From assembly GCA_003151935.1 (NCBI GenBank), contig PLYZ01000082.1:222-35982 (forward strand): a stretch of DNA of 35,761 nucleotides, in the 5' to 3' direction. Under the pieces are notes generated by a model that saw only the letters and a program-made list of their open reading frames with translations, was not told where the DNA came from and searched no databases. Below, one piece after another: positions 1,400 through 29,270 of this stretch (its first letter is position 1; every line of letters starts with the position of its first letter). Source of the DNA: Candidatus Dormiibacterota bacterium. GTDB lineage: Bacteria > Chloroflexota > Dormibacteria > Dormibacterales > Dormibacteraceae. Position numbers and translations under genes: made by a program.

Positions 1400-2542
1400 A
1401 TGCCGGACTGGAAGGCGCTCCGGGCCGAGTTTCCGCTCCTCGGGCGGTACATCTACCTCAACGCCTGCTCGCTGGGTCCCCTCCCACTTCGCGGCCGGGC
1501 GGCGCTGGAACGCTACGCCCAGGATTGGGACCAAAAGGGCACCCCGGTCTGGTTCTCGGACTGGCTCCCACTGCTGGCCGCGTTCAGGGACCGGGTCGGC
1601 GAGCTGTTGGGAGCGCCCGGCGGAACCACAGCGATCGCCCCCTCGGTCTCGGTTGCCCTGACCACCCTGGCCACGTCGCTGCCGCTGGCGGCGGGCCGCA
1701 AGAAGGTTCTGATCGGAGAGCTGGACTTCCCGACCATCGGCCACCAGTGGCTGAGCCGGCCCGAGTTTGAGGTCGAGTTCGTCCCCAGCAGGGATGGAAT
1801 GACGATCCCGCCTTCTGCCTTCGCAGAGCGGATCGACAGCCAGACGGCCCTGGTCGTGACGACCCACCTCTTCTATACGACCGGCTACCTGCAGGACGTG
1901 CGCGCGATCGCCGACGCCGCCCACGCCGCAGGGGCTCTGTGCCTGATCGACGGCTACCAGACCTGCGGTTGCGTGCCGCTGGACGTCGAGGCGATGGGCT
2001 GCGACGCGTTCGTGGGCGGCTGCCTGAAGTGGCTGAGCGGAGGCCCGGGCAATGCCTTTCTCTACGTCCGGCCCGACGTGATCCCGCGTATGCGCCCGCA
2101 GGGCACCGGCTGGTTCGCCACGCGCGACCCGTTCTCCTTCAGCCTGCAGGAGCTCGACTTCGCCGACGACGCGCGCCGTTTCGAGACCGGAACCTGGGCG
2201 ATGCCCTCCCACTACGCCGGCCTGGCGGGGCTGGAGCTGATCCTCGAGGTCGGCGTAGCGAACATCCAGGAGCGGCTGCGCGACCTGACCGATCGGATCC
2301 TGGTGCGCTGCGACCAGGCCGGCGTGCGGACGTTCACCCCTCGGGAGCGGGAGCGGCGGTGCGGGATCGTGACGCTCGAATGCGCGCAACCAGAGGAGGT
2401 CGAAGCCCAACTGCACGCAGCCGGAGTGATCGTGGACTCGCGCCCAGGCCGCATCCGTCTCTCCCCGCATTGGTGCGTAACAGAAGAAGAACTGGAACGG
2501 GGCATGGACCTGGTCTTCCACCACCTAAAAGCACACACCTGA
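1400..2542 (+). CDS. PLP-dependent class V aminotransferase / kynureninase-like enzyme
   Basis: This 380-aa protein has the fold type I PLP-enzyme pattern of the class V aminotransferase, cysteine desulfurase and kynureninase group. LCLIDGYQTCG (Asp184) carries the acidic residue that contacts the pyridine nitrogen. GGCLKWLSGGPGNAFLYVR contains the probable Schiff-base lysine (Lys210), and RRFETGTWAMPSHYAGLAGL is the later cofactor-site loop. The LKWLSGGPG context resembles kynureninase and isopenicillin-N-epimerase-like members more than cysteine desulfurases. No pathway neighbour is present, so the substrate is open. The ATG at 1400 has no good Shine-Dalgarno, so a short-leader transcript is possible. 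The gene is convergent with rplL and divergent from rpoB, inside an otherwise leftward ribosomal block, which suggests insertion there. Confidence 0.85.
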   Translation: MPDWKALRAEFPLLGRYIYLNACSLGPLPLRGRAALERYAQDWDQKGTPVWFSDWLPLLAAFRDRVGELLGAPGGTTAIAPSVSVALTTLATSLPLAAGRKKVLIGELDFPTIGHQWLSRPEFEVEFVPSRDGMTIPPSAFAERIDSQTALVVTTHLFYTTGYLQDVRAIADAAHAAGALCLIDGYQTCGCVPLDVEAMGCDAFVGGCLKWLSGGPGNAFLYVRPDVIPRMRPQGTGWFATRDPFSFSLQELDFADDARRFETGTWAMPSHYAGLAGLELILEVGVANIQERLRDLTDRILVRCDQAGVRTFTPRERERRCGIVTLECAQPEEVEAQLHAAGVIVDSRPGRIRLSPHWCVTEEELERGMDLVFHHLKAHT

Positions 2543-2620
2543 GCCGATTCGGCACGTCTGGCGCCAACCGCGCCAATGCGACGCTCGCAATCCGCATCTT
2601 TGGCACCAGACGTCCACGAA

Positions 2621-2650
2621 AAGAAAGAGCCGGGTCCGAAGGCCCGGCTC
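2621..2650 (-). terminator. rho-independent terminator downstream of rplL
   Basis: On the minus strand, GAGCCGGG (2650-2643) pairs perfectly with CCCGGCTC (2634-2627) around an 8-nt loop containing TTCG. TTTCTTTTC follows directly. It lies 23 nt beyond the rplL stop and should end the rplJ-rplL transcript before the opposing PLP enzyme gene. This supports rpoB being transcribed separately. Confidence 0.85.
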
Positions 2651-2673
2651 CCACGCCCTACCCCTTGTTTCCC

Positions 2674-3063
2674 TTACTTCATGTCGGCGGTGGCGCCGGC
2701 TTCCTTCAGCCGAGCGACAGCCTTCTCGGCGTCAGCCTTGCTGACGTTCTCCAGCACCGGCTTCGGCGCCGCGTCGACCAGGTCCTTGGCCTCCTTCAGG
2801 CCGAGTTGCGTGAGCTCACGGACCGCTTTGATCACGTTGATCTTGCTGTCGCCGACCGCGGTCAGGTTGACTGTGAACTCCGTCTGCTCCTCGACCGGCT
2901 CGGCACCGGCGCCTGCCGCAGGTGCAGCCGCGACGGTAGCCACTGCAGCGGCAGCCTTGATGCCGAACTCGTCCTCGATCGCCTTCACGGCCTCGACGAC
3001 GTCGAGGATGCTCCAGTCCTTGAGGGCTTCCACGAAATCCTTCGGAGTGAGCTTGGTTGCCAT
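2674..3063 (-). CDS. rplL: 50S ribosomal protein L7/L12
   Basis: This 129-aa protein of the ribosomal stalk recruits translation factors. The N-terminal dimerisation helices ([20 protein letters not shown]) are followed by an alanine-rich flexible hinge (about residues 38-58). The C-terminal domain carries the factor-contact segment ([29 protein letters not shown], described here in two parts: [13 protein letters not shown] then [10 protein letters not shown]). Length is normal for the family. Its ATG at 3063 lies 2 nt after the rplJ stop, with GGAGG inside the end of rplJ, so it is translated with rplJ. The mature N-terminus would be Ala-Thr after methionine removal, which matters for the nearby RimJ/RimL-type acetyltransferase gene. 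Confidence 0.97.
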
Positions 3064-3065
3064 GT

Positions 3066-3599
3066 TTACGCTGCCTCCAGTTTGGTCTTGTACGCCTCGA
3101 GCACTCCGAGGAGCTGCTGAAGCGGTGTCTGCATGATTCCGACGAGCTGGGCGACCGGTGACTGAAGCGTGCCCATGAGCTGGGCGATCAGCACTTCGCG
3201 AGACGGCAGATCAGCCAGCTGCTTGATCTGGTCCGAGGAGAAAACGCGGCCTTCGACCAGCCCGCCGACGATCTCCAGCTTGAGTCGGGTGGCGCGGATG
3301 AACTCGTTGATCAGCTTGGAAGCGATGCTCAGGTCGTCGTAGCCGAATGCGATGGCCACCGGCCCCTTGAGCTCTTCCTTCAGCGCCGGGAAGCCGGCCG
3401 CCTCCGCAGCGCGCCGAGCCAGCGTGTTCTTCACCACGCGGTACTCGACGTCGCCGCCCCGGAGCTTGCCGCGCAGCTCCTGGATCTGGCTGACCTTGAG
3501 CCCACGGTAGTCCGTGAGCACGGCGACCTTCGCCTTCTTCAGTTTCTCTATCAGAACTTCGACCTGTTCGGCCTTCTGTTCCTTTTTGGCTTTCGGCAA
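3066..3599 (-). CDS. rplJ: 50S ribosomal protein L10
   Basis: L10 is 177 aa and anchors L7/L12 dimers to 23S rRNA. The N-terminal RNA-binding domain shows [20 protein letters not shown] and [15 protein letters not shown], typical of the family. The C-terminal helix that binds L7/L12 is [20 protein letters not shown] and following residues. The start is TTG at 3599; no in-frame ATG lies near it and MPKAKKEQK is a normal L10 beginning. The likely Shine-Dalgarno (GGGGAGG, about 3610-3616) lies inside the 3' arm of the leader hairpin described separately, so translation start and transcription termination may be coupled. Confidence 0.97.
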
Positions 3600-12601: not shown

Positions 12602-14056
12602 TTAGACAGTCTCGACCTTGAGCAGGTTGGTCTGGCCGGCCAGGCCGACCGGCACGCCGGCCACGACCACCACGGTGTCGCCCGCCCGGACCAGGCCGCT
12701 CAGCCGCACGGCCTCGGTGGCGTTCGCGACCATCTGGTCGGTGTCCTTGCCCGGGCTGACCAGGAGCGGGATGACCCCCGAGTACAGCGCGGTCTTGCGG
12801 AGGACCTCCGGGTGTGGGCTGGCGGCCACCACCGGCACGCGGGGCCTTGCCTTGCTGCACCGAAGCGCGGTCGTCCCGGACTCTGTGAAGGCGATGATCA
12901 CCCGCGCGCCGAGCTCGTCCGCCACGGCCGCCGCGGCATGGGCGATCGCGCTTCCGACCTGGCCCGGCTCGCGCCAGGGCTGCCGAGCGCGCTCGAAGGT
13001 CGGATGGCGCTGCGCCGAGAGGCAGATCCTCGCCATCGCGCGCACCGCCTCGACCGGGTGCGCCCCCACCGAGGTCTCCTGCGAGAGCATGACCGCGTCG
13101 GTCCCGTCCCAGATGGCGTTGGCCACGTCGGACGCTTCAGCGCGAGTCGGGCGGTTCGAGGTGACCATCGACTCGAGCATCTCCGTGGCCGTGATGACCG
13201 GGACGCCCGCGCGGTTCGCGCGGTCGATCACATCCTTCTGCACCGCGGGAAGATCGCCCAGCTTAAGCTCCACGCCCAGGTCGCCACGGGCCACCATCAC
13301 GGCGTCCGCGACCTCGAGGATCTTGCTCAGGTTGCGGATCGCCTCCAGCTTTTCGAGCTTGGCGATCACCGGCGTCTTGCAGGCAAGCTCGCGGAGGTGC
13401 TTCTGGCACAAGAGAATGTCGTCCGGACGCCGGACGAACGACAGGGCGACGTAGTCCACCTGGAGCTCGACCGCCAGCTTCAGGTCCTCGAGGTCTTTTT
13501 CGGTCAGCGCCGGCATCGGCAGCGGGCGGCCGGGCACGCTGACACCCTTGCGTTCGCCCAGCAAGCCTCCCCGTATCACGGAGCATTCGGCTTGACCGCC
13601 GTCGACGCTACGCACCACCAGCTCGATGCGGCCGTCGTCCAGCAACACGTGGTCGCCGCGCTGGAGCGCCTCGACGAGCTCAGGGTGGCTGATCTCGATG
13701 TGATTGTCTGCCTGAGCCGCGCCCTGGATCGAATGTGCATCTTGCGAGCGCCTGGTCCGAGATTCGCCGGTCAGGATCACCATGCGCCCGCGCACGAGGC
13801 GCTGGAAAGCGGCCTCGAGCGGACCGGTGCGGATCTTCGGGCCCTGCAGGTCGCCCAGCAAGGCGATGGGCCGGCCCGCGGCCTCGGCCGCCTCACGCAC
13901 GTCGGCGGCGACCTGGCGGTGCGTCGCATGGTCCCCGTGGGAGAAGTTCATGCGGGCGACGTCCATGCCGGCCTGGATCATCGTGCGCAGGATCGCCGGC
14001 GAAGCGCTCGCGGGCCCAATGGTGCAGACGATTCGCGTGCGGCGGACCTGTGTCAC
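12602..14056 (-). CDS. pyk: pyruvate kinase
   Basis: This 484-aa glycolytic enzyme converts phosphoenolpyruvate and ADP to pyruvate and ATP. Motifs in order: TRIVCTIGPAS; MDVARMNFSHG; LLGDLQGPKIRTGP; the B domain with LLDDGRIEL; VIAKLEKLEAI (catalytic Lys); DAVMVARGDLGVEL (metal Glu/Asp); and TATEMLESMVTSNRPTRAE. The usual LSGET is LSQETSVG here. The C-terminal domain has IIAFTESGTTA and ends GQTNLLKVETV. The start is GTG at 14056, overlapping the NYN gene stop as GTGA. The frame is open far upstream, but that part is antisense-like and not kinase. Its place at the end of an ispDF-cysS-rlmB operon is unusual. Confidence 0.96.
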   Translation of the reverse strand: MTQVRRTRIVCTIGPASASPAILRTMIQAGMDVARMNFSHGDHATHRQVAADVREAAEAAGRPIALLGDLQGPKIRTGPLEAAFQRLVRGRMVILTGESRTRRSQDAHSIQGAAQADNHIEISHPELVEALQRGDHVLLDDGRIELVVRSVDGGQAECSVIRGGLLGERKGVSVPGRPLPMPALTEKDLEDLKLAVELQVDYVALSFVRRPDDILLCQKHLRELACKTPVIAKLEKLEAIRNLSKILEVADAVMVARGDLGVELKLGDLPAVQKDVIDRANRAGVPVITATEMLESMVTSNRPTRAEASDVANAIWDGTDAVMLSQETSVGAHPVEAVRAMARICLSAQRHPTFERARQPWREPGQVGSAIAHAAAAVADELGARVIIAFTESGTTALRCSKARPRVPVVAASPHPEVLRKTALYSGVIPLLVSPGKDTDQMVANATEAVRLSGLVRAGDTVVVVAGVPVGLAGQTNLLKVETV

Positions 14057-14490
14057 TGGTATCGCTTGACCCGGCGGTCCATCTCCGCTTCGGCGTCGAC
14101 TACCCGGCGCTCCAACTCGGGTGCGCTGATCACGGCACCGCCCATGCCGCGCACCAGGTCGCGCTGAAACCGATCTGAGGTGGCCACGGTGATCACGTCG
14201 CCCACCTGGGAGGCCCCATACGCGATGCGCTCGATGGCATGGTCGGCCGAATGACCCTTGCGTGTGAACAGCACGCGCACGCCCTCGACCAGCTCCTCGC
14301 TGTTGGAGCGCGCAGCGGAATGGTGGGCGTCGAACACGACCGTCACGTCGGCTCCGGCCACCATCCCGAACACGGAAAGGCGCTCGATCAGCTTGTCGCG
14401 GGCGGCCTCCAGCGTCGCCTCGCCCATGAGCCGCTTGAGTTGCGGCCAGGCGTGAATGACGTTGTATCCGTCGACGATCACCCGTTCCAT
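14053..14490 (-). CDS. NYN domain ribonuclease-like protein, YacP/Rae1 type
   Basis: This 145-aa protein has the NYN/PIN-like fold. RVIVDGYNVIHAWPQL carries the first acidic residue and the YNV motif. VTVVFDAHHS holds another Asp, and VITVATSDRFQRDLV and DAEAEMDRRVKRY finish the domain. In Bacillus the equivalent gene (yacP, now rae1) directly follows rlmB and encodes a ribosome-associated mRNA endonuclease. Here the site-2 protease gene lies between rlmB and this one, but the neighbourhood otherwise agrees. The ATG at 14490 is 2 nt after the protease stop. RNase activity is inferred from family and context. Confidence 0.88.
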   Translation of the reverse strand: MERVIVDGYNVIHAWPQLKRLMGEATLEAARDKLIERLSVFGMVAGADVTVVFDAHHSAARSNSEELVEGVRVLFTRKGHSADHAIERIAYGASQVGDVITVATSDRFQRDLVRGMGGAVISAPELERRVVDAEAEMDRRVKRYQ

Positions 14491-14492
14491 TA

Positions 14493-15830
14493 CTAAAAGC
14501 GCATGTTTGACTGGCCGAAACTGATGAGCCGCGGGTCGATGCCGAAGAGGCCAGTGATCTGCAGCACGGACTGGAAGAAGGCATGGCTGACGGGCGCGAC
14601 GAACCACAAAACAGCGAACACGGCGAGGATGCCGATCTGCCCGTATTGATTCGCCAGGCCCTGCACGGAGTGGGGCAGCCAGGGCCGGATGATGCCGAAC
14701 CCGTCGAGCCCGGGCACCGGCAGCAGGTTCAAAACGAATGCGATGGCTTCGATGAATCCCAGGAATGCCAGCGCCCCGAAGAAGCCGGCGTTCGTCGGGT
14801 TGAGCCACCCGGCGTTGCCTGGAATCAGAAACGGAGCTGCGACGAGCAGGCCGCAGAGCATGGTGCCCACGGGACCGGCAACCGACACCGCCGAGTCCCA
14901 GCCGCGGCTCCGGAGCGCGCCGCGATCGATGTAGACCGCTCCTCCCGGAAGCCCGATCCCCCCGAACAGCAGGAAGAGCACCGGCATGACGAGGCTCAGC
15001 AAGATGTTGGTGTACCGGAGCGGGTTCAGGTCCAGGTAGCCGGAGGCTCGCACGCTGCGGTCGCCACCGAGGTAGGCCACCAGCGCGTGACCGAACTCGT
15101 GCACGCAGACCGACGTGATCCACCCGGCGGTGACGAAGAGGATGGTCAGCCCTCCGACGAAAGCGGGAAGGATCCCAAACCAGAGCATCGCCCCAGATGC
15201 GGCCGTCGCCGCGACAAGGCCCAGGAACACCGGGCTGACCTGGATCACCCCGCGCATCGACGGCAGGGGCTTCTTGCGCAGGGCGGCATCGGGCCGGGAC
15301 CTGGGGGCCGAAGCCGTCTGGTTCGACCTGGCCGGCTGCGGCTGGGACCGGTTGCCCTGCAGCCGGTCGGACTCCCCGGGCTGGAAGTCCACCTTGGTCC
15401 CGGCCTGAAGGTGGCGGCGGAGGTCGTAGAGCGTCAGGCCGGCAGCCTGGAGCGGCGCGGACGTTTCGCGCGAGTCGCTGTAGAGCATCGTGAGGAGTAG
15501 GTGGATCGAGTCCACCTGGTAGTGGCCCAGCACCTGGGCCTCGCGGTTGGCATTCACCAGCAGCTGGCGGATCGGGAGCGGCTGGGCGCCGGAATCGCCG
15601 GGCGGAGGCAGCTGCGACATGATCGACGAAGGGTCGATGCCAAGCGCGCGGATCGCCTCGTCGGCCAGGCTGCCGCGGCTCGACAGGATCGCCTGCAGCA
15701 CGTCGGTCGGGCTCCCGCTGGCCCCGCGCGCCTTGGCCGACGCGGCGGCACGCTCGAGGATCTCGCGGGCCGAGCGTGTCAGCGGTATGTCCGCGGCGGC
15801 GTGCTCCAGCTCTAAGGTGGCGTCAGGCAT
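14493..15830 (-). CDS. Clp N-domain / site-2 protease (M50) fusion membrane protein
   Basis: This 445-aa protein joins two modules. Residues about 16-75 (PLTRSAREILERAAASAKAR) and 86-142 (PIRQLLVNANREAQVLGHYQ, then HLLLTMLYSDS) match the two Clp repeats at the N-terminus of ClpC, as in the clpC of this window. A Pro/Gln/Ser-rich linker (145-190) follows. The rest is a polytopic site-2 protease with HEFGH (244-248) as zinc and catalytic site and NLLPVPGLDG (368-377) as the third ligand motif. It therefore looks catalytically complete, cutting within membranes. No AAA+ module is present. The ATG at 15830 is 11 nt after rlmB. A regulatory intramembrane protease guided by a Clp-type recognition domain is an inference. 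Confidence 0.88.
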   Translation of the reverse strand: MPDATLELEHAAADIPLTRSAREILERAAASAKARGASGSPTDVLQAILSSRGSLADEAIRALGIDPSSIMSQLPPPGDSGAQPLPIRQLLVNANREAQVLGHYQVDSIHLLLTMLYSDSRETSAPLQAAGLTLYDLRRHLQAGTKVDFQPGESDRLQGNRSQPQPARSNQTASAPRSRPDAALRKKPLPSMRGVIQVSPVFLGLVAATAASGAMLWFGILPAFVGGLTILFVTAGWITSVCVHEFGHALVAYLGGDRSVRASGYLDLNPLRYTNILLSLVMPVLFLLFGGIGLPGGAVYIDRGALRSRGWDSAVSVAGPVGTMLCGLLVAAPFLIPGNAGWLNPTNAGFFGALAFLGFIEAIAFVLNLLPVPGLDGFGIIRPWLPHSVQGLANQYGQIGILAVFAVLWFVAPVSHAFFQSVLQITGLFGIDPRLISFGQSNMRF

Positions 15831-15841
15831 AACGAACCAGT

Positions 15842-16648
15842 CTAGGAACGGCCAATGGTCCGCTGTCTTTCGACCTCGTACAGCAGGGCAGCCGCCGCGG
15901 CCGACGCGTTGAGACTCGCGATGTGGCCTTTCACCGGCAGGCGCACCCGCGCGTCGCACCGCTCCTTGACCAGCCGGTGCACGCCTTCCCCCTCGCTGCC
16001 GACCACGATGCAGACCCGCTGGGTGAAGTCGAATTCCCACGCGTACATCTCGCCTCGCGGGTCGAGAGCCACGCACCAGATGCCCGACCGCTTGACCTCC
16101 GCGACCGCGGACGGCATGCCCGACACCATCGAGATGCGGAGCAGCTCGCTTGCGCCGGAGCTCGCCTTGACCGCCGCCGGTGACAGAGGCGCGCTGCGGT
16201 GCTCGGGGATGATCGCACCGTCGGCGCCGGCGACCTCGGCGCTCCGGAGGATGGCCCCGAGGTTCTGCGGGTCCATGATCGAATCGAGCGCGACCAGCAA
16301 CGACGGATCGGAAGCAAGCAGCTCCTTCAACGGCCACTCCTTGCGAGGCTTGAGCTCCGCGGCCACGCCCTGGTGCACGCCCGGGGCGATCACATCGAGG
16401 CGCTCGGCCGGGACCACCTCGACCCGTGCCAGGCGCGCCAGCTCGTCCAGGCGCGGATCATGACCCAGGCCGGCGGCCTGGTAGACCCTGACCACCCGCC
16501 CGGCGCGCGCCGCCTCGAGCACAGCGTTGCGTCCGTGGATGAGCGCAGTCGCCGCCGCCAGGACGTCTCGCGCGCCGTCATTTGCACCGCGGCGCGCGGT
16601 GACGTTCCCCCCCGGACGGTTTTGGCCGCGAGGGATCCGGCGCTTCAT
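15842..16648 (-). CDS. rlmB: 23S rRNA 2'-O-methyltransferase, TrmH/SpoU family
   Basis: This 268-aa SPOUT methyltransferase probably methylates the ribose of a 23S rRNA guanosine (G2251 in E. coli for RlmB). LIHGRNAVLEA starts the N-terminal substrate-binding domain. SPOUT motif 1 is LDSIMDPQNLGAILRSAEVAG, given here as LDSIMDPQNLGA plus ILRSAEVAG. Motif 2 is CIVVGSEGEGVHRLV and motif 3 is LPVKGHIASLNASAAAA, which forms the knot. I prefer the ATG at 16648, which overlaps the cysS stop as ATGA, over a GTG at 16663. A basic tail (KRRIPRGQNRPGG) precedes the domain. Gene order cysS-rlmB-yacP supports the name. Confidence 0.93.
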   Translation of the reverse strand: MKRRIPRGQNRPGGNVTARRGANDGARDVLAAATALIHGRNAVLEAARAGRVVRVYQAAGLGHDPRLDELARLARVEVVPAERLDVIAPGVHQGVAAELKPRKEWPLKELLASDPSLLVALDSIMDPQNLGAILRSAEVAGADGAIIPEHRSAPLSPAAVKASSGASELLRISMVSGMPSAVAEVKRSGIWCVALDPRGEMYAWEFDFTQRVCIVVGSEGEGVHRLVKERCDARVRLPVKGHIASLNASAAAAALLYEVERQRTIGRS

Positions 16649-18057
16649 CGGGCGCGGCGCCACCGCACGCCGTCCTGAGAGTCTTCCAGCGCGATGCCCT
16701 TGTCGCGCAGCTCCTCCCGAATCTGGTCGGCCCGCCCGAAGTCATGCCCTTTGCGCGCAGCCTCGCGCTCGGCGATCAGCCGCTCCACCTCCTGTGCAAG
16801 GCCAGGTTCCTCCGAGCGGACGATGTCGAGGTGTGCGTCGAAATCGTCAATCAGCTGCAGCAGCGCATCCCGGCCCCGCTCGCCGATGCGCCCTGAGTCC
16901 ATCGCGGCGTTCGCCTCACGGGCCAGCTCGAACACCAGGCCCACGCCCTGCGGCAGGTTGAGGTCGTCGTCCAACGCTTCGCGATAGCCGGCGCGAACCT
17001 CGCCGATCCGCCGCAGCAAATCGTCATCGTCGATCGGGCCGGGCGCCGACCGCCGCACCCGGTCCGCAAACTCACGCAGTCGCCGCACCTGCTCGGACGC
17101 CGCGTGAAGCGCCTCTGTGCTCAAGCGCAAGCGCGTCCGGTAATGGGCGCTGGCCAGCAGGAAGAAGCGGACGGCGACCGGGTCGTGGCCCGCATCGCTG
17201 AGGTCTCTCAGCGTCGTGAACCCGCCCGCACTCTTCGACATCTTCTCGCCGGTTGCGTCTGCCAGGTGCTCGGAGTGCAGCCAGAAGCGGGCGAACTGCT
17301 TGTGGTTCGCGGCCTCCGATTGCGCGATCTCGTTCTCGTGGTGCGGGAACATCAGGTCGACGCCGCCGGCATGGATGTCGAGCGTCTCGCCCAGGTAGCG
17401 CTTGCTCATCGCCGAGCACTCGATGTGCCAGCCGGGCCGGCCGCGGCCGAACGGCGCGTCCCACGCCGCCCCCAGCTTGTCGTCCATCGGCTGCGCCTTC
17501 TTCCAGAGTGCGAAGTCGCTGACCGACTCCTTGTCATATTTGTCTGCTGCTATTCGGGCACCGGCGCGCAGACCGCCGCGGTCGAGGTGCGAGAGAGCTC
17601 CGTAGGTGGGAAAGCTCGCGATCCGGAAGTAGACATCGCCGTCGGCGACGTACGCGTGCTGATTCTCGATGAGCTCGGTGATCATCTCGACCATCTCGGG
17701 AATGTGCTCGGTCGCGCGCGGGTAGTGCGTGGCCGGCTGCGCCCGGAGGGCACCCATGTCCTCGAAGAATGCGGCGACGTAAGGCTTCACGTACTCGCCG
17801 ATCGTGACCCCGGCGTGCATCGCCTGGTCGAGGATGCGATCGTCGATGTCGGTCAGGTTCATCACATGCGTCACGTCATAGCCGCTGACCTGCAGATGGC
17901 GCCGCACCAGGTCGTAGACGAGAAAGGCGCGCAGGTTGCCGGCGTGGGCGTAGTTCCACACCGTCGGCCCGCAGGTGTACATGCCGGCGCGACCTGCCTC
18001 GATCGGCTCGAAGACATCCTTGGCGGCGGTCAGCGTGTTGTGAAGCCTGAGCGTCAC
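16645..18057 (-). CDS. cysS: cysteinyl-tRNA synthetase
   Basis: This 470-aa class I synthetase charges tRNA-Cys. Motifs: MYTCGPTVWNYAHAGNLRAF with the zinc Cys29 and the HIGH-like HAGN; VMNLTDIDDRI; GRPGWHIECSAMS with a zinc Cys; GGVDLMFPHHENEIAQSEA with zinc ligands; and EKMSKSAGGF, the KMSKS loop. The helical anticodon domain follows and ends RADQIREELRDKGIALEDS and DGVRW, the usual CysRS ending. It is complete. The start GTG at 18057 overlaps the ispF stop as GTGA. It is co-translated in the ispD-ispF-cysS-rlmB operon. Confidence 0.97.
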   Translation of the reverse strand: MTLRLHNTLTAAKDVFEPIEAGRAGMYTCGPTVWNYAHAGNLRAFLVYDLVRRHLQVSGYDVTHVMNLTDIDDRILDQAMHAGVTIGEYVKPYVAAFFEDMGALRAQPATHYPRATEHIPEMVEMITELIENQHAYVADGDVYFRIASFPTYGALSHLDRGGLRAGARIAADKYDKESVSDFALWKKAQPMDDKLGAAWDAPFGRGRPGWHIECSAMSKRYLGETLDIHAGGVDLMFPHHENEIAQSEAANHKQFARFWLHSEHLADATGEKMSKSAGGFTTLRDLSDAGHDPVAVRFFLLASAHYRTRLRLSTEALHAASEQVRRLREFADRVRRSAPGPIDDDDLLRRIGEVRAGYREALDDDLNLPQGVGLVFELAREANAAMDSGRIGERGRDALLQLIDDFDAHLDIVRSEEPGLAQEVERLIAEREAARKGHDFGRADQIREELRDKGIALEDSQDGVRWRRAR

Positions 18058-22034: not shown

Positions 22035-22829
22035 CTACCCCCGCTCGAGATCGGCCAGGCGATCGAGGGCGGCAAGGGGCCCGCTCTCCGCGAAGACGTC
22101 AGGCAGCGCCGTCCGAAGGCTCGACTGCACCTGGGTCGCAAGCTGGACTCGCACCTGGAGCGAGAGCTCGGGCCGCCGCCTCGCATATGAGGTCACAAAG
22201 CGACGCAGCTCGGGGTCGAGGCGGCGCAGCGTGAGCTCTGCGGCCGAGGCCGGGGCGTAGGCGACGGTGGGAGGAGGCGGAAGCCCCACCGGTGAACCCG
22301 CAACCGGCGGTGGAGGCGGGACCCTTGCCCCCGGGAGCTGCCAGAGCCACACATGGTCTGAGTCCTTGACCACGATGGTCCCCGCCGCAAGGTCGCCCAG
22401 CCGTTTGCCCTTGCCGTTCGCGAACAGGACGATCAGCCCGACGCCATACGCATAAGGAAGAAAGTCGGCGATCCGAACGATGTTGCGGATCCCGGCCTGT
22501 GCGAAGGTGAGCGGCTCGCCTCGATCGCCCACGGCCCGCAGCCGGAACGCCTTCTTGCCGACGGTTTGCCCGGACCAGAGCGATTCGCTCAGCCAGAAGT
22601 AGCCGAAGATGACGACGAATCCGCCGATCGCAAGGACCAGCGGGGCGATGCTTGAGCCGACGACCAGCAGTGCGCTGGCGACGATGTAGACGGCCGTCAG
22701 GATGGAGCCGACGATGAGGAAGTCCAGGAGCTGCGCGATGGCTCGAGTCCCCAGACCGGCGATCTGGTAATCGAAAGAGACGCGCTCAGGCGTCGCGACG
22801 ACGAGATCGGTGTCCGGCAACGGCAGCAT
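22035..22829 (-). CDS. RDD family membrane protein
   Basis: This 264-aa protein has the RDD domain at about residues 15-155. It includes GLGTRAIAQLLDFLIVGSIL (Arg and Asp of the name), a second membrane span near 55-75, SLWSGQTVGKKAFRLRAVG, and GKRLGDLAAGTIVV (final Asp motif). A Pro/Gly-rich spacer (PPPPPVAGSPVGLPPPP) leads to a C-terminal helical cytoplasmic part. RDD proteins are often next to MoxR/DUF58 and SpoIIM-like genes; transport of some small molecule has been proposed for the domain, but no specific role is assigned. The ATG at 22829 (MLPLPDTDLVV) is divergent from the SpoIIM-like gene with 51 bp between. Confidence 0.9.
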   Translation of the reverse strand: MLPLPDTDLVVATPERVSFDYQIAGLGTRAIAQLLDFLIVGSILTAVYIVASALLVVGSSIAPLVLAIGGFVVIFGYFWLSESLWSGQTVGKKAFRLRAVGDRGEPLTFAQAGIRNIVRIADFLPYAYGVGLIVLFANGKGKRLGDLAAGTIVVKDSDHVWLWQLPGARVPPPPPVAGSPVGLPPPPTVAYAPASAAELTLRRLDPELRRFVTSYARRRPELSLQVRVQLATQVQSSLRTALPDVFAESGPLAALDRLADLERG

Positions 22830-22880
22830 GTCAGGTAATTTTGGGCATGAAATGCGGCCACTGCTTTGAGGGAAGATTTC

Positions 22881-23879
22881 GTGGCCCTGCGGCGCGACGA
22901 CTGGAACCGCCTCGAGGACCTGCTCGCAGCAGCAGCCGGCGGCCGCCTCAACAGTCTTGCGCCGGCGCAGGTGCTGACACTGGCCGCCCTCTACCGGCGC
23001 GCCACAGCGGACCTGGCGCGTGCTCAGCGCGACTGGCCGGGTGAGCCCGTCCACCGCTACCTGAACGGCCTGGTCGCCCGCGGTCACGGAACCGTTTACC
23101 GGCGCGGCGGCGAGGTCTGGAAGCGGATTCGCGCCTTCTACACTGAAACCCTTCCGCGCACGTATCGAGATTCGGCGCCGTACCTACTTGCGGCTGGGGC
23201 GCTTTTGTTCGTGCCCGCGATCGTCAGCTATTTCGTCGTCCTGGCCAACCCGGACGCGGCTAATGCAATCGCGTCTCCGCAGCTGATCGATTCGGTGCAT
23301 CACCACCAGCTGTGGACTCACATCCCGGCCGGAACCCGAGTCGAGGCGGGCGGCCTGATCACGATCAACAACATCTGGGTCTCGATGGTTGCGTTCGCGC
23401 TCGGCATTTTCTTCGGCCTGCCGGTGATGTGGGTGATGATCTCGAACGGGATCAGTCTCGGCGGATTGTTCGGGTTGACCCAGGCTTATGGATTGAGCGG
23501 CGGCCTGTTCGATTTCGTGATCGGCCATGGCGTGCTCGAGCTCTCGATCGTCATCGCGCAGGGCGCGGGCGGCCTGATGCTGGGCTGGGCGCTCATCTCT
23601 CCTGGCAATCGCAGACGGTCCGACGCGCTCGCCATGGCGGCCACGCGGGCCTTCACGCTGCTGCTCGGCCTCGCGCCGCTGCTGGTGATCGCGGGCACGA
23701 TCGAGGGCAACATCTCACCGTCGAGTGCCCCGTTCCTCGTCAAGCTGACGATCGGTCTGACGACAGGATTGCTCTTCTATTCATATCTCCTGCTCGCCGG
23801 GCGCGCGCAGGGCGGATATTCAATTAGAGAAGGGCTCGTTCCTTCAGCTCCAGGTAGCGCTCGACCAAAGCGGGGCTGA
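22881..23879 (+). CDS. SpoIIM-like (stage II sporulation protein M family) membrane protein
   Basis: This 332-aa polytopic protein has an N-terminal soluble helical part ([16 protein letters not shown], then [13 protein letters not shown]). At least five hydrophobic spans follow, with [40 protein letters not shown] and the [16 protein letters not shown] motif typical of the family. The family includes sporulation protein SpoIIM but is widespread in non-sporulators, often near RDD and MoxR genes, so sporulation is not implied. I use GTG at 22881 with GAGGG 8 nt upstream; TTG at 22866 is an alternative. Its 3' end overlaps the opposing DUF58 gene by 56 bp. Confidence 0.87.
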
Positions 23880-25146
23880 GGTTCCCCGCGACGACGTCGA
23901 GGCCGAGCACGCCCCCGCGCCGGAGCAGCTCGAAGCTCTCGCGCCGGCTGGCCACGAACTGCTCCGCGGCGGCCCATTCGTAAGCCCGGGCCGACGTGTC
24001 GATTGGAGAGTCGCGGGCGCTCAGGACGGACGGGTCGGACATCGCCACCACCAGCACGAGGTGCTTGGCTGCGAGTCGAAGGCAGTGCGCAACCAGCTCC
24101 TTCGAAGCCACTGGGTCCTGGACGTCCGTCAAGACCACGACCATCGAGCGCCGGCCGAGCCGCAGCGCCAGGTGGGTCATCGCGTGGCCGAAGTCCGGCT
24201 CGATCGACTGTGACTTGACCGCGTAGAGGGCCTGAGTCAGCCTGCGAATCTGGGTGCTTCCGCGCTCCGGCTTGATGAAGCCTGTGACGTGGTCATCGAA
24301 TGTCATGAGGCCAACCCGATCTCCGTAGGCGTGGGCGACCCAGGCGAGCATCAGCGCGGCGTTGACCGCGTGGTCGAGCTTGTCGAGCTCCCCCGCCGGG
24401 GCCGTCATGAGACGTCCGCAGTCGACCGCGATCATGACGTTCTGGCCGCGCTCGGCCTCCACCTCCACGACCACGGGATGGTCGCGCCGGGCGGTGGCGG
24501 TCCAGCTCACCCGGCGGATGTCATCTCCGCGGACGTACTCGCGCAGCCCCGCAAATGCCGTGGACGCGCCGGGCGGTCGCGCGCGACGCATGCCGGCCAT
24601 GGCGCGCAGGCCACGCCGAAGCGTCAGCTGGATGCGCTTGATCGCGACCACGTTGGGAAAGACGGCCACCTCGTCGGGTTGCTGCAAGCGAACCTGCCTC
24701 CGCCACCAGCCATCGTCTCGCCAGACCTGTACATCGACGGGGCCGAAGGGATAGGCGCCGCGCTTCGGCGAAGACGTCTGGTAAGCGACCTGCAGCCGGC
24801 CGCCCGCATCGAAGCGGCCGCCGACCTCGCGAGGCTGCGGCTTCAGGTCGGCGGGAGCGTGGTCCGCGACCACGGCATTGAGTCCCGCAGCGCCCGGGTT
24901 TTCGACCACGACTGTGACCTCCTCGCGCTCACCGAGGGAGAAGGGCTCGGGCACCGTCCGGCGCACGCGGTAGCCCGAACGCCCGGGCAGAAGCGCCAGG
25001 TCTCGCGTGGCGATGATGACCAGGCCGGCGTTATAGACCACGGCGACAAAACCCAGGAGCGGCGAGACAATGGCGAGCGCGATCAGTGCGGCGCCGATGG
25101 CGACCGCCCAGAGCAGCCTGGGCTGCGGGGCAAGCCCTCTCGTCAT
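23824..25146 (-). CDS. DUF58 domain protein (VWA-like)
   Basis: This 440-aa protein has two N-terminal membrane spans (about 12-46), then an immunoglobulin-like part ([17 protein letters not shown]). The DUF58 core is [20 protein letters not shown], a hallmark motif, then [20 protein letters not shown], an Asp-containing VWA-like strand. A later [18 protein letters not shown] supports the VWA-like fold. In MoxR systems DUF58 proteins are thought to act with the MoxR AAA+ ATPase as a chaperone-type assembly at the membrane. It lies 19 nt downstream of the MoxR gene. The last 56 bp overlap the end of the SpoIIM-like gene. Confidence 0.92.
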
Positions 25147-25165
25147 TGTGAATCGGCCGGCAGCG

Positions 25166-26131
25166 TTAACGCGGAGGGACGACCCGGCCGGCCACGGCTT
25201 CCAGGACGCTGTCCGGGGTCTGGCCGCCGACCTCCGCTTCGGGCCGGAGGATCAGACGGTGGCGGAACGCCGGAGCGAGCAGCCCCTTCACGTGGTCGGG
25301 CGTCACGAACTGCTGTCCCTCGAACGCTGCATAGGCGCGCGCGGCCAGCATCAGCAGGACTTCGGCGCGAGTGCTGGCGCCCAGGGCGATCTCGGGCGCC
25401 GTGCGGGTGGCCGACGCCAGGTCGACGACGTAGGAGCGGATCTTCTCGTCGACAACGACCTTCGCAACCTCAGCCCGGCAAGCTTCTATGTCTTCCGCTC
25501 CCAGCACCGGCTCGACGCCGGCCTTCACGGGATCGCGCAGCTCGATCCCCGACTCCCAGCGACGCAGCACCTCCATCTCGTCCGCGGGCGATGGATAGTC
25601 CAGCCGCACCTTGAAAAGGAAACGATCCTGTTGGGCTTCCGGAAGCGGATAGGTGCCCTCGTATTCGACCGGGTTCTGGGTCGCGAGGACGAAAAATGGC
25701 GCCGGCAACGGCAGCTGCTTGCCCTCGAGCGTAACGCCGCGCTCCTCCATCGCTTCCAGCAGCGCCGACTGCACCTTGGCGGGAGCGCGATTGATCTCGT
25801 CCGCCAGCAGCACGTTGGTGAAGATCGGCCCGCGGCGCAGCGCAAAGGTCCGGGTGGTGAGGTCGTAAACCGAGGTGCCGACGATGTCCGCCGGCATGAG
25901 ATCCGGGGTGAACTGGACGCGCCCGTATTCGAGCGCCAGCGCACGGGCGATCGACTTCGCGAGCAGCGTCTTGCCGGTGCCTGGGACGCCCTCCAGCAGG
26001 ACATGGCCTTGAGCCACGAGCGCGATCGCACATAGGCGGATGGCCTCCTCCTGGCCGACCACAGCCTTGATGAGCTGCTCGCGCAAGCGCGCGTAGAACT
26101 CGGGTGCCGCCACCGATGCGGTACGGGCCAT
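25166..26131 (-). CDS. MoxR family AAA+ ATPase
   Basis: This 321-aa ATPase shows IKAVVGQEEAIRLCAIALVA, Walker A LLEGVPGTGKTLLAKSIARA, PDLMPADIVGTSVYD, Walker B VLLADEINRAPAKVQSALLE (Asp-Glu), ERGVTLEGKQLPL, sensor 1 FVLATQNPVEYEGTYPLPEA and the arginine-finger region QQDRFLFKVRLDYPS. The C-terminal lid has ALGASTRAEVLLMLAARAYA. It is complete. Neighbours DUF58, DUF4350 and DUF4129 form the usual MoxR cluster. Its ATG shares one base with the DUF4350 stop. MoxR ATPases remodel or activate client protein complexes; the client here is unknown. Confidence 0.95.
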   Translation of the reverse strand: MARTASVAAPEFYARLREQLIKAVVGQEEAIRLCAIALVAQGHVLLEGVPGTGKTLLAKSIARALALEYGRVQFTPDLMPADIVGTSVYDLTTRTFALRRGPIFTNVLLADEINRAPAKVQSALLEAMEERGVTLEGKQLPLPAPFFVLATQNPVEYEGTYPLPEAQQDRFLFKVRLDYPSPADEMEVLRRWESGIELRDPVKAGVEPVLGAEDIEACRAEVAKVVVDEKIRSYVVDLASATRTAPEIALGASTRAEVLLMLAARAYAAFEGQQFVTPDHVKGLLAPAFRHRLILRPEAEVGGQTPDSVLEAVAGRVVPPR

Positions 26132-27282
26132 CAGTCCACCCTATCCGAGCCGGGTAGGTGGCCGCGCCGTCCCGCTGCTTCGATTGGGTGGGCGATTCGA
26201 TGCAGCCGCTTGGCCGCCTTCATGAGGTCGGCCTCGCTTGCCGCGGATGCATGCAGCGCGTTTTCCGCCTCTGCGAGGTCTGCGGCCAGGGCGGGCACGC
26301 GCACCCACAGAGCATTCCAGAAGCGCTCACGCGGCTGCAGCGGAATGCCCGTCCTGGCTGCGACCGTGCGCTCCGTGGCCGTGGCGAGCAGGCCGAGCGT
26401 GACGGCGCGGGCACTCGAGCGGCGAAGGAGCTGGCCGACCGCCACCGCCCACTCCACGTCGGCGCGCGCGAGCTCGCGAGGCCGCATGATGATCGGGCCG
26501 AACCGGCGCCCGCGCAGCACGAGGCCCGCAAAAACCGCAACCAGCAGCCACAGCAAGGCCGCACCCCAAGGGGTGGTGACCCAGGCCTGCGGCGTGAAGT
26601 CGCTGAGGATGATCCCGTGGTGATACTCGTCGAAAACTACCGCCGCGGTCGGACTCGCGAGGCCCAGGAGGTCGGCCAGCAGCCGGCCGTTGTCCTGCTT
26701 GTCGAGGTAGCCGTTGCACAGCACGAGAGGGTCGGCCAGGACCACGACGGCGCCTGACGAGATTCGCTGCACGTATCCGGTAACAAGACCATCGGAATTG
26801 CGCAGAAACGGAACCTGGTCGGCTGCGGGATCCAGCGGAATGACCGACGATCCGCCCGTGACCCTGGTGACTCCTGACACGGCCGGATTGCCGAGCTGAA
26901 GGGTTCCGCCCGTATAGCTGCCGAGCCGCGTCACGCCAAACGCGCGGTCCAGCTCAGGGTCTCCTTGCTCCGAGGCATAGATCAGCAAGCCGCCTGAGCG
27001 GACCCACAGGCGAGTCCGCTCCGCTTCGTCGGACGTGTAAGGGCTGGTTGGCGTGAATACGAACATGACGCCGAAGGATTCGGGGGGTGCGAACGCACCG
27101 CTGACCTCGTCTGTCGGGTGACCCATGGCCTGGGCGAAAAGTCGCGCCGCTGAGGTGCCGTTGGCCGCGTCGCTGTTCGAGCTGTGCTCGGGTGAGTCCT
27201 GTGGGGGCTGCACGAGATAGGCCAGAGCCGCAATGGCGACTGAGATGGCGGCGGCGATCACCCAGCCTCGCGCTCCCCTCAT
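26131..27282 (-). CDS. DUF4350 domain protein
   Basis: This 383-aa protein has an N-terminal membrane anchor (GWVIAAAISVAIAALAYLV) and an extracytoplasmic part with RLFAQAMGHP and FTPTSPYTSDEAERTRLWVR, then SGGLLIYASEQGDP, matching the DUF4350 layout. A second membrane span lies near 247-265 (WGAALLWLLVAVFAGLVLRG), followed by a cytoplasmic helical tail. The family is nearly always in MoxR/DUF58 clusters and has no proven activity; its fold may resemble a glutamine-amidotransferase-like domain, which I cannot test. The start overlaps the DUF4129 stop as ATGA. Confidence 0.85.
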   Translation of the reverse strand: MRGARGWVIAAAISVAIAALAYLVQPPQDSPEHSSNSDAANGTSAARLFAQAMGHPTDEVSGAFAPPESFGVMFVFTPTSPYTSDEAERTRLWVRSGGLLIYASEQGDPELDRAFGVTRLGSYTGGTLQLGNPAVSGVTRVTGGSSVIPLDPAADQVPFLRNSDGLVTGYVQRISSGAVVVLADPLVLCNGYLDKQDNGRLLADLLGLASPTAAVVFDEYHHGIILSDFTPQAWVTTPWGAALLWLLVAVFAGLVLRGRRFGPIIMRPRELARADVEWAVAVGQLLRRSSARAVTLGLLATATERTVAARTGIPLQPRERFWNALWVRVPALAADLAEAENALHASAASEADLMKAAKRLHRIAHPIEAAGRRGHLPGSDRVD

Positions 27283-28172
27283 GCGGCCAGCTCCGCGGGC
27301 TGACGAAATGGCGCGGCGACCTGGGTTGCGTGCTCGTAGGTCGCTGCGTCGACGTCACGACCGCCATAGACTGCCGCCTCGAACGGCGCGAGGAGAGGAC
27401 GAAGACCCGCGGGGTCAGGTGCGCGTTGGAAGATCTCGCGCACCGTAAGGGGGCTACCCTCCCACGTACGCTCGCCGGCCAGGGTGGCGGCGACGCCCGC
27501 ACACAGGTTCCGAATCGCACCGACCCGATCACCCCTTGCGGCGAGACGATCGGCCTCCGCGAAATAGTCGGCCGGCGCCCTGGGACCGCTGGGCTGGTTC
27601 GCCATCAAGCCCTCGGTGAACCGCCCGCGGGCGGAGCGAAACAAAATGATGGCGACGGCGCCGAGCCCCACCGCGCTCACCAGTAAAAAGAACCACCCGG
27701 GCACCTGCCCTCCGCCGCGGCCGAACAGCAGGTTCAACAGCTGGCCGATCCGATCGCCGATCCACTGCCCTAAACGGTCGAGCCACGAGGGCGGCCTGTG
27801 CAGCGCGTCGTAGCGATGCATGGCGAGCACGTCGTGCAGGCGCTGCTGGGCAAGCTGCGGGTCGGAGGTGCTGGCCGGCTGGTCCAGCACGGCCAGGAGC
27901 GCAAGCAAGCGGCCCCTGGCGTCTTCGAAATCGGGCGGCTGGCGCTGCAGGTCGGACAGGATCTCGAGCTGAGTCATCCCGGTGCCGGCTTCAAGGGCGC
28001 TGGCGGCGTTGCGCGCGCTGGCGGTGTCGTCGGGGGCGGCCGCCTCAACCAGGTTGTAGGCGTCCTCGACGGCCTGTCGGTACGTTGGAGGGGGAGGTGG
28101 GTCGGCCGAAGCCGTCAGGGCCGTGAGGGACGCGAACGCCAGGAGCAGCGCGGTCACGGCCAGGAAGCGCAT
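27279..28172 (-). CDS. DUF4129 domain membrane protein
   Basis: This 297-aa protein has a cleavable-looking signal peptide (MRFLAVTALLLAFASLTALT, then ASADPPPPP). An external helical region of about 130 residues follows, then one membrane span (WFFLLVSAVGLGAVAIILF). The cytoplasmic DUF4129 part has APADYFAEADRLAARGDRVG, AIRNLCAGVAATLAG and SPLTVREIFQRAP. This N-out/C-in layout is common for the family. The gene is translationally coupled to DUF4350 by an ATGA overlap. Role in the MoxR assembly is inferred from repeated co-occurrence in bacteria, not from sequence. Confidence 0.85.
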   Translation of the reverse strand: MRFLAVTALLLAFASLTALTASADPPPPPTYRQAVEDAYNLVEAAAPDDTASARNAASALEAGTGMTQLEILSDLQRQPPDFEDARGRLLALLAVLDQPASTSDPQLAQQRLHDVLAMHRYDALHRPPSWLDRLGQWIGDRIGQLLNLLFGRGGGQVPGWFFLLVSAVGLGAVAIILFRSARGRFTEGLMANQPSGPRAPADYFAEADRLAARGDRVGAIRNLCAGVAATLAGERTWEGSPLTVREIFQRAPDPAGLRPLLAPFEAAVYGGRDVDAATYEHATQVAAPFRQPAELAA

Positions 28173-28186
28173 CGGGATGCGGTGCT

Positions 28187-29053
28187 TCAGTGAATGCTCG
28201 CAAGGCCTGGAGCCGGCGGGGGCGGGGGCGGCGGCAGGGCTTGCGCCAGCTGGAAGAGGTCCAGCCCTTCACGCCGCACGCGCAGGTCGAAGTAGATGAG
28301 GACGATGGCGATCTGGAGGATCGGGTTGACGAGTGAATCGACGATCACGCTCGTCGCTCCGGAGATCCACAGGACAACGACCGGGGAGATGACGAGCTGG
28401 AGCAGCGTTTGAGCCAGCGCGATGAACGCGCCCAGCGCAATGCGCACCGCATAAAAGATGATGGCCAGCAGGAAGACGATCAGGAATGTGCGCCACCAGC
28501 GCCCCTGGACAAGACGCCAGCTGCGGCCCATAGCGGCTCCGAGGCCGGCGTTTTCGATGAACATCACGGGCATGACCGCGACCCAGCTGACCAAGATCCA
28601 GATCCACAGCGGCAGCAGGCAGAACACCACCAGCATCAGCACGATCAAGAACCAGTAGCCGAACAGAGGAAAGTACCGACGGCCCACCCCGCGGAGCACG
28701 CCTGAAACCGTGACCGGACGGCCTAGCGCGGACTCGCAGGCGGCATACGTGATCGCTGCGTAGGAGAACGGGACGAGGGCGAGGTCCAGGACCAGGAAGA
28801 TGCCGGCTACGACCAGGGTCGATTGGATGCTCCCGAGGTTGGGCGCCTGGGCAAAGGTGGTCTCCTGGGCGAGGCCGGCAAACAGCGCGCTGGCGACGAC
28901 TCCCGAGAAGGCTGCCGTTGGTATCGAAAGGATCACCGAGAGACCGGCGAACAGGACAAAGTGACGCCGGTACATGCGAAAGGTTTCGTCGAGCAGATCG
29001 CCGATCTCGAGGGGGCGCAGCCGAAGCGGGGGTGTGGCGGTCACCTTCGTCAA
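28187..29053 (-). CDS. polytopic membrane protein of the MoxR cluster
   Basis: This 288-aa protein begins LRLRPLEIGDLLDETFRMYR, a signature of membrane proteins often labelled glycerophosphoryl diester phosphodiesterase membrane-domain-like or DUF975-like. About six hydrophobic segments follow. Between spans 3 and 5 lie VPFSYAAITYAACESALG and ENAGLGAAMGRSWRLVQGRW, the latter a repeated pattern in the family. The C-terminus is proline-rich (LPPPPPPPAPG). No catalytic phosphodiesterase residues are present. I use TTG at 29053; GTG at 29044 is an alternative and neither has a Shine-Dalgarno. It lies 14 nt upstream of the DUF4129 gene and probably starts the MoxR operon. Confidence 0.8.
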   Translation of the reverse strand: MTKVTATPPLRLRPLEIGDLLDETFRMYRRHFVLFAGLSVILSIPTAAFSGVVASALFAGLAQETTFAQAPNLGSIQSTLVVAGIFLVLDLALVPFSYAAITYAACESALGRPVTVSGVLRGVGRRYFPLFGYWFLIVLMLVVFCLLPLWIWILVSWVAVMPVMFIENAGLGAAMGRSWRLVQGRWWRTFLIVFLLAIIFYAVRIALGAFIALAQTLLQLVISPVVVLWISGATSVIVDSLVNPILQIAIVLIYFDLRVRREGLDLFQLAQALPPPPPPPAPGLASIH

Positions 29054-29270
29054 TTGTGGGCCACGACCGGAACGCCGTCGCCACCAAGCCGTTAGGCAAA
29101 CCCCTGGCGGGCCCTCCCTCTTGTTGGCTCCCCCGCGCAAGTGGCGATGAGGATGGGACTTACTGATTGCCCCAGAGCCGGCAACGCCTATCCGCGAGCG
29201 AATCTATCGCAAGCCGTGCGGCGTTGCCAACCCAGGTTGTCAAGACGGCGAGATTCGCGAGCGCCGGAAG
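29054..29270. other. intergenic region between clpC and the membrane-protein operon
   Basis: This 217-bp gap contains repeat copy C (29135-29170) flanked by GGCTC and GAGCC. I saw no clear rho-independent terminator for clpC; GCCGGCAACGCC and GCGGCGTTGCC (about 29177-29228) are complementary and could form a long stem-loop without a U-run. No coding signal is seen. Confidence 0.55.
29135..29170 (+). repeat. 36-bp interspersed repeat, copy C
   Basis: This copy differs from the consensus only at AAGTGG in place of AAGCGG. GGCTC at 29126-29130 and GAGCC at 29175-29179 flank it as an inverted pair, which is also seen at copy E. Confidence 0.87.

Follow-up and report, generated by a model that had tools for sequence, protein, structure and literature searches.

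The stretch of DNA analyzed here (the window) spans 35,761 nucleotides of contig PLYZ01000082.1 and comes from a soil bacterium of the Chloroflexota/Dormibacterota. On its minus strand, an exact open reading frame at 14493..15830 (ATG at 15830, TAG at 14493-14495) encodes a protein of 445 amino acids, in which a Clp_N domain is fused in front of a protease of the M50/site-2 type. The gene sits between two neighbors on the same strand: rlmB (15842..16663), an rRNA methyltransferase-like gene from the list of ORFs that was named from its sequence and the gene order, lies 11 bases upstream, and yacP (14053..14490), encoding a NYN domain (Pfam NYN_YacP, 139.8 bits), follows 2 bases past the stop codon. 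Both belong to a housekeeping row composed of radA, PIN/TRAM, ispDF, cysS, rlmB, yacP, and pyk, which lies downstream of clpC in the window, with clpC and the fusion gene 13 kb apart. The minus-strand region between clpC and radA (22035-29140) holds GPDPase_memb, DUF4129, DUF4350, MoxR, DUF58, and RDD genes.

The protein can be divided into four parts, all encoded on the minus strand. Clp_N repeat 1 (residues 16-75, 15606..15785) was delimited by hhalign against the ClpC of the window, the structural model, and the family alignment. It is far weaker in sequence than repeat 2 (residues 86-143, 15402..15575), although both repeats appear in the predicted fold and are spanned by the profile alignment. 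A linker follows (residues 144-195, 15246..15401), variable, partly disordered, and basic at its end, and leads into the membrane-embedded protease domain (residues 196-445, 14496..15245), which was assigned from Pfam M50 and the helices of the model. This domain contains the zinc-binding motif HEFGH (residues 244-248, 15087..15101) and the motif NLLPVPGLDG (residues 368-377, 14700..14729), with His244, Glu245, His248, Asn368, and Asp376 invariant in all 44 fusion proteins aligned; Asp376 is the expected third zinc ligand.

Both domains pass their Pfam cut-offs when the whole protein is searched, Clp_N with 25.7 bits against 20.7 (residues 94-142) and Peptidase_M50 with 31.7 bits against 27.2, and each of the 44 aligned relatives matches both families (with E values up to 0.01 for Clp_N). 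The N-terminal part searched alone scores 30.6 bits for Clp_N over two matching stretches, and a Clp_N search of the whole genome independently recovered the gene above the cut-off. Pfam showed no AAA+ modules in the protein, and neither a PDZ nor a CBS domain even at E values up to 10. The fusion is therefore real, as the original prediction had it: a site-2 protease whose motifs are complete carries Clp_N at its N terminus (residues 16-143). The protein reads as a predicted intramembrane metalloprotease of the site-2 protease family. A match to the daptide maturation protease (NCBIfam NF041824) was dismissed as general M50 similarity, since its 16.7 bits fall far short of the cut-off of 300, and PADLOC gave no match for anti-phage defense.

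The original prediction had aligned residues 16-142 by eye with the two N-terminal repeats of ClpC, and this register was confirmed when a profile of 30 fusion N-domains was compared with the N-domain of the window's ClpC (99.2% probability over 141 columns, E value of 8e-20). The same profile matched the ClpB of this genome more weakly (E value of 4e-14), and by these profile comparisons the N-domain is nearer to ClpC than to ClpB. Residues 18-131 also matched a ClpC2 structure (9p2p) in a phmmer search of PDB chains, with an E value of 3.4e-4. The genome encodes a second ClpC-type N-domain protein of ∼284 residues without AAA+ modules (locus L003, G000:C80:31618-34776, frame from locus base 1417); this ClpC2-like protein keeps GTEH in its first repeat and has DTGH in its second. 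A short open frame of 180 residues at another locus (L007, G000:C19:21414-24554) also matches Clp_N, with no AAA+ module in the frame.

We modeled residues 1-149 alone with AlphaFold (pLDDT of 88.9, pTM of 0.85) and the full-length protein from the 44-sequence alignment (pLDDT of 88.6, pTM of 0.79), with low confidence falling mainly in the linker, at residues 141 to 180. The N-terminal part presents the all-helical, two-repeat Clp_N fold, and Foldseek matched it to the N-domains of ClpC2, ClpC, ClpC1, and ClpB with a probability of 1.00 and a TM score of about 0.7, the best match being ClpC2 (8ad9, E value of 8e-6). When the full-length model was searched, the N-domain dominated the outcome, and the 50 matches listed included a single site-2 protease, mjS2P (3b4r), with a probability of 0.94 and a weak E value of 0.28. 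The model places HEFGH inside a predicted helix formed by residues 222 to 254 and the LDG triplet at residues 375 to 377.

The positive-inside rule and the topology of mjS2P are an established basis for deciding on which side of the membrane such an N terminus lies. Residues 176 to 199, which precede the first membrane helix, are basic (six Lys or Arg residues and one Asp or Glu), and the model shows a single membrane helix ahead of the one carrying HExxH. Because of these two features, we read the N-domain as most likely cytosolic.

The fusion is a recurrent feature of the host lineage. The two-domain protein was found in 34 of 61 genomes (the host's own and those of its relatives), distributed as 24/37 in the host's own family, 10/12 in another family of the class, and none in two further families. 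A scan of named genomes added at least about 15 more, nearly all Chloroflexota; among the matches listed in that scan, the fusion is found in Dormibacterota and more rarely in other metagenome-assembled genomes, labeled as Roseiflexaceae, Chloroflexaceae, Herpetosiphonaceae, Anaerolineales, Thermoflexales, and, once, Bacillota. When 301 genomes were sampled evenly across the phylum, full-length matches were confined to the same class, and the fusion is therefore rare elsewhere in the phylum. Plasmids gave M50-only matches and no fusion, and the upstream frames of most of 16 additional M50 relatives, inspected by eye, showed no split pairs of Clp_N and M50 genes. One genome (G019) encodes, beside its full-length fusion, a second match to the N-domain only, 68% identical, in an open frame of 169 residues (G019:C128:48435-48881).

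In the phylogeny of the protease domain, fusions from Dormibacterota and Chloroflexia form one supported group (98*), while the remaining ones, mostly labeled Anaerolineae, are placed elsewhere. A single origin of the fusion is neither shown nor excluded by these sequences.

The gene occupies the same position between rlmB and yacP in all 22 own-family loci among the matches listed in the named-genome scan. Five relatives that lack the fusion (G010, G015, G030, G031, and G032) present a clean empty site in which rlmB directly adjoins yacP. This context does not extend to the other lineages whose loci we compared: the fusion gene of some Anaerolineae-type genomes is flanked instead by NifU/SufU-like and Rieske [2Fe-2S] genes (L106:9603-11708 and L108:6753-8796), an arrangement that suggests a link to iron-sulfur proteins in those genomes. 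One of these loci (L106) also has an aminotransferase class-V (SufS-like) gene upstream. Given that the neighbors differ between lineages and that near relatives have empty sites, the fusion gene is an accessory gene, present or absent between close species at a fixed site within a stable row. For the same variability of neighbors, we do not infer a functional link to clpC from its presence in the window. What occupies the rlmB/yacP site varies between species; in one case (G013, locus L162, contig G013:C31, locus bases 1907-3277), it is an unrelated MFS transporter-like ORF of 456 residues on the opposite strand.

The four parts of the protein are not equally constrained. Over the 44 members, repeat 2 had the highest mean column conservation (0.66), followed by the protease (0.61), repeat 1 (0.50), and the linker (0.23 over residues 144-190). 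In ten close pairs, the dN/dS of the protease domain ranged from 0.10 to 0.29, while that of repeat 2 was 0.055 to 0.18 in eight pairs and 0.26 and 0.36 in the other two. From the low dN/dS together with the conservation, the Clp_N domain is under purifying selection, repeat 2 most of all; since repeat 2 is conserved like the protease and has a low dN/dS, we consider it functional. In an alignment of 30 sequences, Tyr104, Asp107, Tyr117, Asp119, and Tyr135 of this repeat were invariant and yet unlike the corresponding residues of ClpC, which points to a ligand of the family's own.

The binding sites described for ClpC allowed us to ask what such a ligand might be. Two phosphoarginine (pArg) pockets of the ClpC N-domain depend on Glu32 and Glu106 and are also used by MecA, whereas substrates, MdfA, and cyclic peptides bind elsewhere, in a hydrophobic groove; Lys85 contacts adaptors and cyclic peptides (PMC12583610). 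In the fusion protein, Glu32 is replaced by Thr42, in repeat 1, and Glu106 by Ile109, in repeat 2. The window's own ClpC retains both glutamates. Nine of the 44 fusions have a glutamate at the first position, and no aligned Dormibacterota member is one of these; the second position is never a glutamate, being occupied by Ile, Leu, Val, Gly, and others. Most members have Arg or Lys at the position equivalent to Lys85. As the pArg glutamates are gone and other residues have become fixed in the family, the ligand of the fusion protein should, judging from the alignments, differ from that of ClpC.

These substitutions weigh directly on the proposal that the domain reads pArg and so recruits tagged proteins to the membrane protease. 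The N-domain model does share its fold with the pArg-binding ClpC domain (5hbn), and the nine relatives that keep the first glutamate fit such a role, but the loss of both pocket glutamates in the fusion protein, and of the second one throughout the family, led us to reject it here, and we regard it as the least probable of the readings considered. The original prediction that the protease could pick up ClpC's own clients through phosphoarginine is thus not supported. Searches for McsB with PF00217 and NF002194 gave no match in this genome and none in the control genomes either. Only marginally less remote is a function as a decoy that soaks up natural antibiotics directed against the ClpC N-domain. 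Mycobacterial ClpC2, the best structural match, binds cyclomarin A and protects ClpC1 in this way (PMC10030653). However, a sponge needs no intact protease, and the catalytic motifs of the fusion are invariant; moreover, the position of Glu89, one of the cyclomarin-contacting residues described in that work, is Val92 in the fusion protein. We consider this function very improbable.

The reading to which we give an even chance is that a cytosolic Clp_N receptor selects or gates substrates for the intramembrane site-2 protease. The Clp_N domain, positioned at the cytosolic face beside the active site, would be the selecting or gating module: a membrane client or a dedicated adaptor would offer an exposed segment, probably hydrophobic, to the groove between the repeats, the flexible linker would let the domain feed the client to the zinc site buried in the membrane, and the client would be cut there without ATP. 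Accessory parts of other site-2 proteases act on substrates, namely the PDZ domains of RseP (PMC10202637) and the CBS domain and interdomain linker of SpoIVFB (PMC11486902), and it is because they play such a part that we propose it for Clp_N. It counts against this reading that no neighbor shared across the lineages compared points to a pathway.

A link between Clp proteolysis and intramembrane signaling, as originally proposed, would go further than substrate selection. The membrane-anchored Clp_N domain would share adaptors or clients with ClpC, or dock on ClpC itself, so that cleavage in the membrane is coupled to degradation of the fragment by ClpCP. The closer profile match to ClpC than to ClpB, the basic residue kept in most members at the adaptor-contacting Lys85 position, and the presence of clpC in the same window are all in keeping with this coupling. 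Against it, the glutamates are missing from the pArg pockets, where MecA binds as well, a ClpS search with working positive controls gave no match in this genome, and the gene neighbors of the fusion vary between lineages. Furthermore, the products of site-2 proteases that have been documented go to ClpXP, and ClpCP left the tested RsgI fragments undegraded (PMC12203970). We therefore judge the coupling unlikely. Of the original interpretation, the conserved fusion and a most likely cytosolic N-domain are supported, and the part that relied on pArg is not. It is possible that other clients or adaptors are shared with ClpC through the hydrophobic groove. We hold with considerable doubt a broader proposal, in which Clp_N would receive, by this groove and not by pArg, adaptors or clients belonging to the ClpC network, the protease would cut them in the membrane without ATP, and one pool would serve both cytosolic Clp proteolysis and intramembrane signaling; if true, the fusion would be the Clp system's counterpart within the membrane.

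The Clp_N domain could also be regulatory instead of substrate-binding, acting through autoinhibition or oligomerization: it would sense an unfolded peptide or a small ligand, or assemble the protease, and so switch it on or off with no picking of substrates. Binding of unfolded peptides is a property of Clp N-domains, which in ClpC are allosteric control domains (PMC12583610); the strong constraint on repeat 2 and the flexible, variable linker are likewise compatible with such a switch. None of this evidence separates a regulatory role from substrate capture, and we think a pure switch rather improbable.

In the open-licence literature we found no paper describing the combination of Clp_N and M50; the architecture may well be on record in automatic domain databases. 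A 2023 review divides site-2 proteases into four groups according to PDZ, CBS, or no accessory domain (PMC10202637), and a conserved set bearing Clp_N would be a further architecture. The fusion suggests how a site-2 protease could select clients at its cytosolic face, and it presents the Clp N-domain as a portable module outside AAA+ machines. Sequences and models support the architecture well, and the role of the Clp_N domain is putative.

By its defining motifs, the protein is a site-2 protease that falls in neither group I (PDZ) nor group III (CBS); its N-terminal part belongs to the Clp_N family (PF02861). It resembles the group III enzymes SpoIVFB and mjS2P in its M50 core with HExxH and LDG, in the lack of a PDZ domain, and in having an accessory domain, predicted to be cytosolic, that is joined by a linker (PMC11486902), but theirs is a C-terminal CBS domain and that of the fusion an N-terminal Clp_N domain. 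With RseP and RasP of group I it shares the M50 catalytic motifs and an extra domain beside the catalytic core, although it has no PDZ domain and its extra domain is predicted to be cytosolic, whereas theirs is periplasmic. Unfused M50 relatives among the matches listed, from Actinomycetota (Actinomadura, Streptomyces, and Acidimicrobiia) and Ktedonobacterales, have a protease domain that is mostly 40 to 49% identical and differ in lacking Clp_N. The likeness to the N-terminal domain of ClpC extends to the fold, both repeats, and the sequence register, but the fusion has no AAA+ ATPase and conserves other residues in place of the pArg glutamates. Mycobacterial ClpC2 likewise presents a ClpC-type N-domain without AAA+ modules; it is, however, an autorepressor and antibiotic sponge with a dimerizing four-helix N-terminal part (PMC10030653). 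The fusion lacks that part: its ClpC-like domain stands at the N terminus, is followed by hydrophobic helices, and is carried by a membrane protease.
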